35,904 nucleotides of DNA. Source: Lachnospiraceae bacterium (lineage in GTDB: Bacteria > Bacillota > Clostridia > Lachnospirales > Lachnospiraceae). The notes below the pieces were generated by a model. It was given only the letters and a program-made list of their open reading frames with translations. It was not told the origin of the DNA and did no database searches. Where the stretch lies: the NCBI GenBank assembly GCA_017889125.1, contig JAGHER010000032.1, positions 1-35,904 on the forward strand, in the 5' to 3' direction. Of the stretch, positions 83 to 3,194 are shown in pieces. How positions within the stretch are numbered: position 1 is the stretch's first letter; every line of letters starts with the position of its first letter. The translations under genes and the position numbers were made by a program.

Positions 83-616
83 TCAGGCAAACATCCCGCC
101 CAGCCAGATGCTTGCCCCGACCCCCGCGGCCGTGGCAAGCAAAGCACCCCAGAGGGCGTACCTGGTTTTTCGTATTCCTACGCTTCCAAAATAAATGCTC
201 AGGCAGTAAAATACCGTCTCCGTACTGGAAAGCATCAAAGACGCCATCAGTCCCAGAGGACTGTCCGGCCCATGGGCCTTAAAGATATCCAGCATCAGCC
301 CCAAAGCAGCCGAGTTGGATACCAGCCGCATAAGGGTCACAGGAATCAGCTCTGCCGGAATATGCAGCAGAGACGCCGGTCTTGCCAAAAGCGCCGACAG
401 AAAATCAAGAAAGCCAGAGGCCCGCAGCACTCCCACTGACACCATAAGCCCCGTCAGGGTAGGGAAAAGCTCCGCCGTGATTTCCATCCCCTCCCTGGCT
501 CCTTTTAGGAAATCATCAAAAACCGGCCGCCTGGACAGAAGGCCGAAGGCCACAAGATAAAATATGGTAAAAGGCATCAGCGCCGATGACAGCCAGATAA
601 AAAAGGATATCCACAT
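83..616 (-). CDS. spmB: Spore maturation protein B (SpmB)
   Basis: 177-residue integral membrane protein of the nucleoside-recognition (Gate) family. With SpmA it is needed in sporulating Firmicutes for full dehydration of the spore core. Residues about 8-27 form the first hydrophobic segment; the internal stretch LVSNSAALGLML and the STETVFY motif near residue 131 are typical of SpmB, and the length matches the family. An in-frame stop lies three codons upstream, so ATG 616 is effectively the only start, yet it has only a weak Shine-Dalgarno (a GGGA about 12 nt upstream). spmB normally follows spmA directly and is translationally coupled to it; here spmA is at 11058-11624, same strand, about 10 kb upstream. 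Family assignment is firm; the effect of separation is inferred. Confidence 0.93.
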   Translation of the reverse strand: MWISFFIWLSSALMPFTIFYLVAFGLLSRRPVFDDFLKGAREGMEITAELFPTLTGLMVSVGVLRASGFLDFLSALLARPASLLHIPAELIPVTLMRLVSNSAALGLMLDIFKAHGPDSPLGLMASLMLSSTETVFYCLSIYFGSVGIRKTRYALWGALLATAAGVGASIWLGGMFA

Positions 617-838
617 ACGCGACTATTTTCCCTGTACTTTTCCACAATTTATGATAAGGAAGGCGGGGATATTCACAGTAACCCCGCCAGCCGCACGATA
701 TTCACCGGATAACATAGCAATTCTTTCCGGTGGATGGTATAATAGGAGCACTTGGCGAGGTATTGTCGAGGTTAGAAGCCATGGTACAATAAGTTCATCA
801 AGTATAAAATCGCAGGGTGACAACAACGGAGGTATCTT

Positions 839-1297
839 ATGCTTACGATTATATATGGAGATGCAGAAAACAGCATTTATAATACGAGTGTATATTTTAA
901 AAATACTTATGAACCGGAATGGCTGGAATCAGAGCTGGCGAAAAAGATGATCAAAGATGTGGATAATTCTGATGTTTTAAGCGGAGAGTGCATTAACAGC
1001 CCTGTTTTAGGACAGATTCCGCCGGAGAGACTGTCCGGCGGTGTAAAAACGCTGTTGCTGATGCTGAATGAGTCGGATAAAATTTTCAATGCTTCCACAT
1101 GCGGAGATAATTGTGCAAAATGGATCTTGGAAATAGCAAAACAGAAAGATCTAACGATCAATCTCAGGCATATGATGAGCTTTGGAAGGGATACAGCATT
1201 TGAAATACGGGTAGAAAATGGTGGGGAGATCGTCCATTCCATGAGGGAGCTGGTTCCAATCGCCAACCAATACTTAAATGAAATGGAACAGGAGTAG
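839..1297 (+). CDS. DUF4869-like protein, first gene of a two-gene cassette
   Basis: 152-residue soluble protein, no signal or membrane segment. I assign it to the DUF4869 type from memory of the family pattern (short N-terminal strand MLTIIYGD, central LSGG-K-T-LLLML, then CGDNCA and a conserved RHMMSF-like segment); function unknown. A GGAGG lies 7 nt before the ATG. It ends 5 bp before the ATPase gene at 1303, whose SD (AGGAG) lies in the last codons of this gene, so the two are probably translationally coupled. Residues 65-68 (LSGG followed by VKT) resemble the signature loop of ABC/SMC-type ATPases, although no Walker A is present here. The pair is visibly AT-richer and uses more ATA/AGA/AAA codons than flanking genes, suggesting separate acquisition. 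No toxin, nuclease or regulator domain is recognised. Confidence 0.72.
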   Translation: MLTIIYGDAENSIYNTSVYFKNTYEPEWLESELAKKMIKDVDNSDVLSGECINSPVLGQIPPERLSGGVKTLLLMLNESDKIFNASTCGDNCAKWILEIAKQKDLTINLRHMMSFGRDTAFEIRVENGGEIVHSMRELVPIANQYLNEMEQE

Positions 1298-1302
1298 CGC
1301 TT

Positions 1303-2280
1303 ATGAAAGGGGCACATAGAATCATTGTAGAATCCAAAAAAGTAAAATATGATTTCACCATCAAAAGGAATATCACCATTCTTACGGGAAACAGCGGATC
1401 TGGAAAAACTGTCCTGATCGAACTGATCCGGGATTACAGAAGATATGGTTCTGACAGCGGGGTATTTCTTTCCTGTGACCGGGAATGCAGGACGATTGAT
1501 AACGAAGACTGGGAAAGACAGATTTCTGAAACATCGAACAGCATTATATTTATAGACGAAGGAAACCGTTTCCTGAGATCCAGAAAATTTGCAGACCTGC
1601 TGCAGAAATCGGATAATTATTTTGTGATTGCCACGAGAGAAAAACTCCCGATGCTTCCCTACAGTGTGAATGAAATTTACGGTTTCCGTCAATCCGGAAA
1701 GTTTCACAACGCAAAGCAGAAGTACAATGAAATTTATCATCTATATGGGGAAATATCGGAGGAGAGGATGATCGTTCCAGAATATGTACTTACTGAGGAT
1801 TCAAATTCCGGATATGAATTTTTCAGGGAATTGTCAAAAGAAAGAAATATCACCTGCATCAGTGCAAATGGAAAATCCAATATTATTTCCTGCTTGCAGA
1901 AGATGGAGAGAAAAAAAGGAACATGTCTGGTGATTGTGGACGGCTCAGCATTTGGATCCGAAATGCGGGATATCAGCGAATACCTGAATGACGTTGATCA
2001 TATTATTTTATACGCTCCGGAGTCCTTTGAATGGCTTTTGCTTTCAACAGATATGATTCCGAATGTCCGGGTAACACATATCCTTGAACAGCCGGAAGAA
2101 TATATTGACAGTAAAGAATATGTCAGTTGGGAGAGATTTTTTACCTCCCTTCTGGTAAGTAAGACACAGGGCAATCCGCTCTGGGCATATTCTAAGAAAA
2201 AACTTCCGGATATGTATTTATCATCAAAGATTTTAAATGCTGTAAAAGTTCAGATGAAGCTAATTGTCTGGAATAGCTAG
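1303..2280 (+). CDS. P-loop ATPase with possible TOPRIM-like C-terminal half
   Basis: 325-residue cytoplasmic protein. Residues 29-36 (GNSGSGKT) are a clear Walker A after a short N-terminal beta segment; residues 81-90 (IIFIDEGNRF) are a Walker B with the catalytic Asp-Glu; residues 107-112 (FVIATR) could be a sensor-1 strand. The ATPase core is small, about 130 residues. The second half has an acidic residue after a strand (VLTED, about 161-165), an ANGKSN segment (188-193), an IVDGSAFG turn (211-218) and an APESFEWLL helix (238-246). This order recalls OLD/DUF4435-type TOPRIM domains, but it is only a pattern match and the usual DxD reads D-G-S. It follows the DUF4869-like gene by 5 bp and probably acts with it. 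Substrate and role unknown; a defence or nucleic-acid function is a guess. Confidence 0.7.
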   Translation: MKGAHRIIVESKKVKYDFTIKRNITILTGNSGSGKTVLIELIRDYRRYGSDSGVFLSCDRECRTIDNEDWERQISETSNSIIFIDEGNRFLRSRKFADLLQKSDNYFVIATREKLPMLPYSVNEIYGFRQSGKFHNAKQKYNEIYHLYGEISEERMIVPEYVLTEDSNSGYEFFRELSKERNITCISANGKSNIISCLQKMERKKGTCLVIVDGSAFGSEMRDISEYLNDVDHIILYAPESFEWLLLSTDMIPNVRVTHILEQPEEYIDSKEYVSWERFFTSLLVSKTQGNPLWAYSKKKLPDMYLSSKILNAVKVQMKLIVWNS

Positions 2281-2354
2281 TTTTTTATATATTGATATTT
2301 GGCCAATTATTTCTAGCCATTATTTCCGTTTCACGATAAGATGGAGGTTTTCCC

Positions 2355-3194
2355 ATGCTTTCTGCTCTCTTTCTGGCAGATGATGCCAGCTACACGAAAA
2401 CAGAACAGCAGATTATTGAATTTATCTGCCAGAATCCAAACAGCTTCCTCACCGTTTCCATCTCCCAGCTTGCCAGACGGCTGGAGGTTTCTGACGCAAC
2501 AATTTCCCGGTTCGCCCGCCATGCAGGATACCAGGATTTTAAGGAGTTAAAAACCGCCGTGGCCAATGCCATGGAAGGGGCAGGCCCGGCGGAAAAGCTT
2601 AAGGAGAGCATCTCCTCGGAAAAAAATGCCGGTCTGGAGCAGTTTCTTCTCCACCAGCAAGGCTGCATCCAGAAAACACTGGAGCGGATGGACCGCCAGG
2701 CCTTTTTCCAGGCTGCAGAAGCCATCTGTCAGGCAGATTCCATATACATCCACGGAAAAGGCGCATCCCACTGCCTGGCCCAGCTTCTGGCCTTCCGGCT
2801 GAAGCGCTTTGGAAAAAGAGTATGCCTTATGCCCTCCGGCGGCTCTGAGCTTTTTGAGGACCTTGTCCATGCCAAAGCAGACGATGCCCTCATCACCTTC
2901 GGCTTTCAGAAGCTTCCCGCCGAAGCAAAAATTCTCTTAAAGCAGGGACAGGCCGCAGGCTGCCGCACCATCCTCTTCTGCAGCCGGATTTACACCGAGC
3001 TGGAGTCAGCAGATCCCATCCGCCTGTTCATCTACCGCGGCGAGCCAGAGGAATATCATTCCATGACTGCCGCCATGGCTGTGCTGGATGCCCTGGTGCT
3101 GGAGATTGCCTCTGCCATGGGAGAAAGGGCTGTAGAGCAGTTAGACCGGCTTCATCAGTTAAAAGGACAGTACCGGGTAAGCACCGACACGTAA
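2355..3194 (+). CDS. RpiR/MurR-family transcriptional regulator (HTH + SIS)
   Basis: 279 residues. Residues about 1-75 are an RpiR-type helix-turn-helix (YTKTEQQIIEFI...SISQLARRLEVSDATISRFARHAGYQDFKELK); residues about 105-240 are a SIS sugar-phosphate binding domain (IHGKGASHCLAQLLAFRLKRFGKRV). Such proteins sense phosphosugars and repress or activate sugar, cell-wall or nucleoside genes. A GGAGG at 2342-2346 fixes the ATG at 2355. It is read toward the minus-strand PHP/ECF genes and its 3' end overlaps the PHP gene by 40 bp. Control of the neighbouring transporter operon is plausible from proximity but not shown by any site. The effector cannot be named. Confidence 0.88.
   Translation: MLSALFLADDASYTKTEQQIIEFICQNPNSFLTVSISQLARRLEVSDATISRFARHAGYQDFKELKTAVANAMEGAGPAEKLKESISSEKNAGLEQFLLHQQGCIQKTLERMDRQAFFQAAEAICQADSIYIHGKGASHCLAQLLAFRLKRFGKRVCLMPSGGSELFEDLVHAKADDALITFGFQKLPAEAKILLKQGQAAGCRTILFCSRIYTELESADPIRLFIYRGEPEEYHSMTAAMAVLDALVLEIASAMGERAVEQLDRLHQLKGQYRVSTDT

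Follow-up and report, generated by a model that had tools for sequence, protein, structure and literature searches.

Gene content of the locus

The window, which is the whole stretch of DNA analysed here (35,904 nucleotides of a Lachnospiraceae genome), carries near its start two small co-directional genes, designated A and B, that are separated by 5 bp (1298-1302). Their coordinates, signals and motifs are collected in Table 1. An earlier sequence-only reading of this DNA had described two coupled genes with the Shine-Dalgarno sequence of the second lying inside the first, and the open reading frames and the AGGAG at 1290-1294 agree with that description. The promoter-like element upstream of A is considered weak because nine such sites occur in that region, where shuffling gives a mean of 5.4 (sd 2.5). 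The same reading had called the pair AT-richer than its neighbors and different in codon use, and this holds true: G+C content is 39.9% for the pair versus 51.7% in the rest of the window, with 1 of 345 equal-length sliding stretches as low, and GC3 of A and B is 0.43-0.44 versus 0.62-0.69 in three neighbors, spmB, rpiR and an ECF-transporter gene (names assigned by eye and by Pfam profile matches). Both frames are under purifying selection, with dN/dS of 0.04-0.08 for A (computable in four of six pairs) and 0.08-0.12 for B (five of six), values that are rough because dS is near saturation.

Table 1. Features of the A-B cassette, with positions in the window
Feature	Positions	Strand	Basis
Inserted stretch, missing from the spmB-rpiR gap of two same-genus genomes	655-2340		blastn, limits from G693
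Promoter-like TTGTCG-16-TACAAT upstream of A	763-790	+	consensus match only
Shine-Dalgarno-like GGAGG of gene A	828-832	+	sequence
Gene A (DUF4869 protein, 152 aa, ATG)	839-1297	+	ORF; PF16163 E 1.8e-58
LSGGVK of A (residues 65-70), conserved S-x-G-x-K, ABC-signature-like	1031-1048	+	alignment; ABC profile comparison
CGDN of A (residues 88-91), conserved CGxN	1100-1111	+	alignment
Shine-Dalgarno-like AGGAG of gene B, within the 3' end of A	1290-1294	+	sequence
Gene B (P-loop ATPase domain + TOPRIM-like domain, 325 aa, ATG)	1303-2280	+	ORF; domain split in type II relatives
P-loop ATPase domain of B, N-terminal, residues 1-150	1303-1752	+	hhalign to stand-alone ~142-aa type II P-loop gene, probability 98.4
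Walker A GNSGSGKT, residues 29-36	1387-1410	+	G29, S31, G34, K35 invariant in 26 rows
Walker B IIFIDE, residues 81-86	1543-1560	+	E86 invariant in 26 rows
TOPRIM-like domain of B, C-terminal, residues 157-325	1771-2277	+	aligns to stand-alone type II C (probability 94.6) and RloB
TED 164-166, E165 on Glu of RloB 'TEG'	1792-1800	+	E165-D166 in 26/26 rows
D213 of 'VDGSAFG', on first Asp of RloB D-x-D	1939-1941	+	26/26 rows
PESFEW 239-244, on RloB 'SNxxFExW'	2017-2034	+	E240, S241, F242, E243 in 26/26 rows

Insertion, distribution and mobility

The cassette is lacking in two genomes of the same genus, where spmB and rpiR lie next to each other. Window positions 87-654 and 2341-3177 aligned by blastn to positions 832-1399 and 1487-2323 of the G693 locus (L164), leaving 87 bp between them, and window positions 96-653 and 2382-2918 aligned to 845-1402 and 1522-2058 of the G692 locus (L165), leaving 119 bp; the same gap in the window measures approximately 1.7 kb. 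The search for empty sites covered 11 genomes of the genus, of which four, including the window's own, had an rpiR match, and G696 (41% identical, other neighbors) was left out. The two empty sites bear out the insertion beside spmB that had been read from the sequence. Among other genes lie nine relatives, with 74-81% DNA identity to the window in their main pieces; two of them (L014 and L015) have upstream genes in common with each other, and similarity to the window largely stops at the ribosome-binding site of A and at the end of B. The exception is a 41-bp upstream stretch common to the window and L010, which forms part of the repeated motif described next.

The motif GCACTTRGCGAGGTATTNTCGAG (window 748-770, + strand), upstream of A, occurs at three places in the genome with up to three mismatches, and at none for the reversed pattern. 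It was considered as a cassette part and rejected, as it has three genomic copies and lies upstream of the cassette in one relative only (L010). It is a repeated element. Vehicles for the insertion were likewise sought among integrases, transposons and terminal repeats. No integrase or transposase gene is present in the cassette, no terminal repeats were seen, and the direct and inverted repeats near the insertion are short ones that do not mark its limits.

A DUF4869 match (E 0.001) was found in 57 of 299 genomes of the same family, Lachnospiraceae, with 54 above the curated cut-off, and in 1 of 398 genomes of a phylum-wide sample, which was the window's own. Matches also occur on records classed as plasmids from Agathobacter, Ruminococcus albus (conjugative) and Collinsella. 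The cassette-bearing Agathobacter rectalis 'plasmid' (L167) also has proS, a CCA tRNA nucleotidyltransferase gene, an HU gene and yabP, which gives it the look of a chromosome-like replicon. From G111, a genome of the same genus, 14 loci of this kind were fetched (L053-L063, L065-L067); directly after the truncated B of one of its cassettes lies a gene that is Fic-like by eye (L055, 4830-5717). The A-B pair is horizontally mobile. Vertical inheritance with a housekeeping operon, named in the sequence-only reading as a finding that would speak against a conflict module, fails as a description of the pair given the empty sites, the differing flanks and the plasmid records.

Relatives of the pair as separate genes

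Gene B is a single chain in the window and its nearest relatives (type I). In a second, divergent branch (type II), the cassette consists of three separate genes: A, a P-loop gene of approximately 142 aa (Bn) and a gene of approximately 230 aa (C). Profile comparison gave probabilities of 99.8 for A against type II A, 98.4 for the first half of B against Bn and 94.6 for the second half of B against C. Gene order varies among relatives. The order C-A-Bn is found at eight loci (L111, L113, L114, L115, L121, L124, L125, L131) and the order A-Bn-C at nine (L062, L116, L118, L119, L120, L123, L126, L127, L129), some of whose C genes are short or truncated at a contig edge. Two type II loci, L117 and L128, contain Bn with no A found, and C is missing at L132, where A and Bn are present. 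In seven very divergent loci (L058-L061, L066, L067, L122), A-Bn precedes a third gene with an E-D motif at its start, a gene that is short in L058 and L060; this third gene was linked by an iterated profile for L066 and L067, by a weak profile score for L058, L059 and L061, and for the rest by motifs read by eye. B precedes A at L053, L102, L104 and the divergent L108. No conserved third neighbor of type I was seen in flank clustering. The window's own genome has a second, divergent pair of DUF4869 and P-loop genes, of type II, near a contig start (L003; G000:C75:195-1059), upstream of genes that by eye are rplS-like and signal-peptidase-like.

An ATPase domain and a TOPRIM-like domain in gene B

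The intact Walker A and Walker B motifs noted previously, GNSGSGKT and IIFIDE, are present in the first domain of B. Among the best 25 of 26 Pfam families, AAA_14 (1.7e-7) was the only match above cut-off, and matches to general P-loop families fall mostly at the Walker A region. Searches against solved structures by sequence returned matches in the P-loop region and weak unrelated ones.

The second domain resembles the TOPRIM nucleases of the RloB/OLD kind, a profile similarity of moderate probability. A pooled profile of type I and type II C sequences scored 36.7 against 29 RloB proteins, with a probability of 57%; this score was reached by 0 of 200 column shuffles (maximum 16.4), and the reversed profile scored 19.0. 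The separate scores were 31.8 for type II C, whose shuffles reached at most 24.0, and 28.5 for type I C, whose shuffles reached at most 23.1. Thirty flank families served as further controls, a set that includes one true relative, type III C, which came out on top at 24.6; the best unrelated family scored 19.0. Pfam matches were weaker. The OLD-like_TOPRIM match of B has an E of 0.098, no RloB match (cut-off 31.5 bits) was among the best 25 of 26 families for the window's B, and type II C scored 13.4 bits (E 0.09) against RloB, below the same cut-off, in one of three sequences scanned.

The glutamate expected after strand 1 of a TOPRIM fold is present as E165, which is found in 26 of 26 rows and aligns to the RloB glutamate. 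At the D-x-D motif the first aspartate is invariant, and the second position is alanine in 24 and serine in 2 of the 26 type I rows, so that catalysis by the C domain is uncertain. Type II reads D-x-x-x-D-N at this site and keeps E-D, D...D-N and F-E. The window's own genome has four RloB-family matches besides the cassettes studied.

Gene A and the ABC-type ATPases

The partner of the ATPase had been called DUF4869-like and without assigned function. Its match to PF16163 is indeed complete, covering profile positions 1-128 of 128 with 196.4 bits against a curated cut-off of 28.9, and neither DUF4869 nor PF16163 is named in any paper of the literature searched, outside of which fall most subscription papers and all preprints. 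Two motifs stand out. In LSGGVK, G68 and K70 are invariant and S66 is nearly so (36 rows). In CGDN, C88 and G89 are invariant and D90 and N91 nearly so in the type I A alignment, and the G and N are invariant in type II.

When the type I A profile was compared with 81 flank families, the top match was to ABC transporter ATPases with a score of 30.4; the other families had a mean of 13.4 (sd 2.6), the next best being 22.0, and 0 of 100 shuffles reached the ABC score (maximum 27.1). The alignment is colinear, placing LSGGVK on the signature, passing through a gapped Walker B region, placing RHMM on THYM, which we take to be the ABC H-loop, and running to the last strands. Type II A compared with the ABC profile was not significant, 22 of 100 shuffles scoring as high. 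A relationship of DUF4869 to RloA was rejected, as the profile comparison was not significant, and a solved-structure search by sequence gave no credible match for A. The type I alignment raises the possibility that an ABC signature motif is provided in trans by A.

Linkage of A and B and decay of B

All 33 full-length, stop-free B matches, found in a search that scored up to seven candidates per genome, have a DUF4869 match alongside. Together with the 57 of 299 family genomes noted above, this supports the tight linkage and the patchy distribution that the sequence-only reading had proposed to check. The 35 intact A-before-B pairs have gaps of -29 to 119 bp and have the form of two small adjacent co-directional genes, as in toxin-antitoxin modules. 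Distances in A and B are correlated (r 0.85 over 25 loci, 0 of 2000 permutations).

To describe decay, a gene was called intact if at least 0.90 of its profile was matched in one frame. There are 65 type I loci, most of them found via A, and leaving out two that touch contig ends (L107, L174) gives 63. Both genes are intact at 43 loci and both are broken at one; at 19, A is intact without an intact B, and an intact B with a broken A occurs at none. Among the 19, B is broken in 15 and was not found nearby in four (three bacterial loci and one phage). The sequence-only reading had held that frequent occurrence of each gene alone would count against it. This mostly fails, in that no intact type I B lacks A at the 63 loci, and what stands of it is the A alone at three bacterial loci and in one phage and the P-loop gene without A at the two type II loci. 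B being twice as long as A, the asymmetry was corrected for length, and it remained at 18:0 with the phage left out (p 0.001) and at 15:0 with the B-missing loci also left out (p 0.004).

The first breaks in B are concentrated. Eleven of 15 fall in model positions 151-235, a stretch that takes in the beginning and core of the TOPRIM-like domain (p 0.0002, for a window chosen after looking), three of these eleven (153, 156, 157) being at the joint of the two domains, and 3 of 15 fall in the ATPase domain (p 0.03). Break positions were entered by hand, with L096, whose match starts at 96, entered as 1. Some breaks may be assembly errors of draft genomes, though such errors are not expected to favor positions 151-235. 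On a tree of A, the intact or lost state requires 16 parsimony changes compared with 16.2 for shuffled labels, from which the losses of B look scattered over the tree, and at least six changes are forced by well-supported branches. This tree has 57 rows; the locus with both genes broken (L011) and eight loci on plasmid or phage records were left out, the window was added and L107 was counted as intact. The pattern of breaks is that expected if the TOPRIM-like part is costly and A is harmless or useful. Read from the sequences of the loci, the decay suggests a resemblance to a toxin/antitoxin pair in which the TOPRIM-like part has been disabled repeatedly and A kept.

Genomic company and viral records

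In the first 25 of 138 families, the genes nearest to the cassettes are of mixed kinds: metabolic genes, regulators and transporters. At E<=1e-15, 18 PADLOC families were matched by the 120 nearest genes versus 24 by 120 distant genes, nearly all as single members; the near genes were taken from 148 of 165, with long ones and C genes left out, and the far genes were 120 of 139. As near-gene matches are not enriched, the cassette lies outside recognized defense islands in these samples. A setting in defense islands was accordingly rejected, and the proximity to defense genes that the sequence-only reading had proposed to check is not supported. DUF4435 was considered as a yardstick and proved too rare (1 of 120 genomes).

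One phage, recovered in three metagenomes (L049 = L050 = L051), contains a full DUF4869 gene (E 6.1e-46; L049 8001-8447), the neighbors of which are on the other strand. An ATPase of the B kind was not found on the phage records of 180 kb and 224 kb, which are possibly fragments. Judged by eye, the L049 gene has several DNA methyltransferase-like genes nearby, as well as one gyrase/topoisomerase-like and one RNase H-like gene. A second viral record (L047) has the pair with B broken by one stop, and five faecal 'Bacteriophage sp.' records, which are unverified scaffolds, contain the pair. The type II A and C profiles and another type I A found nothing in viral contigs.

Interpretation

In the reading we favor, the A-B pair is a conflict module, toxin-like or abortive-infection-like, that moves horizontally and follows the ATPase-plus-TOPRIM plan with the addition of a third partner specific to the family; A and the ATPase domain would control a TOPRIM-like effector. 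Its probability is put at slightly above one half, confidence having been lowered a little because the P-loop gene occurs without A at L117 and L128. In the proposed mechanism, gene B would unite two parts, a small P-loop ATPase domain and a TOPRIM-like effector that is likely a nuclease and possibly directed at RNA or tRNA as in PARIS. The DUF4869 protein would bind the ATPase domain and either keep the effector inactive or sense the trigger. A phage trigger or the loss of A would then free the effector, resulting in growth stop or death of the infected cell. That the effector is a nuclease, that A inhibits it, that a trigger acts on the module and that it takes part in phage defense are our inferences, and the part played by A, which is proposed as a guard or antitoxin-like partner, is deduced from the decay patterns. 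The sequence-only reading had also raised the possibility of a conflict or nucleic-acid-handling module; of these, a conflict module is the claim at issue here: linkage (33/33), patchiness (57/299), mobility and toxin-antitoxin-like decay strengthen that claim, and the absence of clustering near known defense genes weakens it.

A more specific and tentative form of the module, which we regard as rather unlikely, is a split ABC-type machine in which the ATPase domain of B would provide Walker A and Walker B and DUF4869 would provide LSGGxK in trans. ATP held between A and B would then gate the TOPRIM-like effector, the parts would have been shuffled between fused and separate genes, and the lone DUF4869 of the phage could be a decoy or antidote. 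An antitoxin mimic encoded by a phage and directed against DarTG has been published (PMC11481870), and with this precedent the L049 gene may be an antidote.

Should the cassette be purely an addiction (toxin-antitoxin) device that spreads selfishly and offers no protection from phages, solitary copies scattered among mixed, mostly non-defense genes, copies on plasmid records and the decay pattern of an addiction pair would all be in keeping. We nevertheless consider this improbable: a large phage record with A alone fits more readily with a system that acts on phages, and the presence of an ATPase domain, along with strong diversification (14 divergent loci fetched from one genome), suggests sensing. 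Slightly less probable again is a benign accessory module for nucleic-acid repair or RNA processing, in which the TOPRIM-like domain would be a processing enzyme and the losses neutral decay. Patchiness, mobility, the scattered loss of B with A kept and the clustering of breaks in one region argue against such a module, which draws on the purifying selection, the lack of enrichment of defense neighbors, the A-less P-loop genes at two type II loci and the non-defense roles of some OLD-family ATPases, the last according to PMC12796447. Least probable is a degenerate, non-catalytic TOPRIM that acts as a sensor, with A or a host protein as the effector, for which the D-G-A/S of type I and the D-x-x-x-D-N of type II at the D-x-D site could speak, but which is doubtful given that all 26 rows share E165, D166, D213 and ESFE (240-243), that type II retains its E-D, D...D-N and F-E, and that breaks fall mostly at the TOPRIM-like domain.

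If the conflict-module reading is true, DUF4869 is the partner of a mobile ATPase-TOPRIM effector across a major family of gut bacteria and on plasmids, and is found alone in at least one phage. It would also explain a multi-copy family with 14 loci in one genome, and it could reveal a new way to build an ABC-like ATP site from two proteins.

Comparison with known systems

One close likeness is to RloA-RloB and AbiL (AbiLi-AbiLii), which like the cassette combine a P-loop ATPase with an RloB-like TOPRIM and have the motif order TE[DG]...D...FE. RloB is related to OLD_TOPRIM, and AAA:TOPRIM_OLD pairs have been validated as toxin-antitoxin pairs, according to passages of PMC10440598. In the cassette family the two parts are either fused (type I) or encoded by separate genes (type II). 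Unlike RloAB, the cassette adds a DUF4869 gene. The ATPases differ as well. The RloA-like neighbors are 388-475 aa long (24 proteins, chosen by a Walker A pattern from 30 RloB loci), whereas the ATPase domain of the cassette is approximately 150 aa and its Walker B follows Walker A closely; compared with an ABC-type RloA of approximately 400 aa, its match to the RloA profile covers 26 columns at the P-loop only.

In PARIS, the TOPRIM effector AriB cleaves tRNA once released by the ATPase AriA (excerpt of PMC12409363), and ATPase and effector occur fused or apart (excerpts of PMC12409363 and PMC10568477). In PADLOC, B matches AriA best (4e-5). This likeness is limited to the P-loop region, spanning 70 residues (24-93), no DUF4435 match was among the best 25 of 26 families for B or was found in the window's own genome, and the cassette differs from PARIS in its extra gene A.

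The OLD classes (class 1 OLD, Gabija GajA and retron-Eco8 OLD) place an ATPase at the N terminus and a TOPRIM at the C terminus of a single chain (PMC10568477), and non-defense roles are described for some OLD-family ATPases (PMC12796447). Gene B has an ATPase domain and then a TOPRIM-like domain on one chain in the same manner; however, its ATPase domain is too short for the complete ABC type and its OLD-like_TOPRIM match is the weak one given above. No helicase or reverse-transcriptase partner gene recurs beside the cassette. Within Pfam, gene A is a clear member of PF16163, and the link of this family to B, its three-gene form and its phage-borne member are described here.
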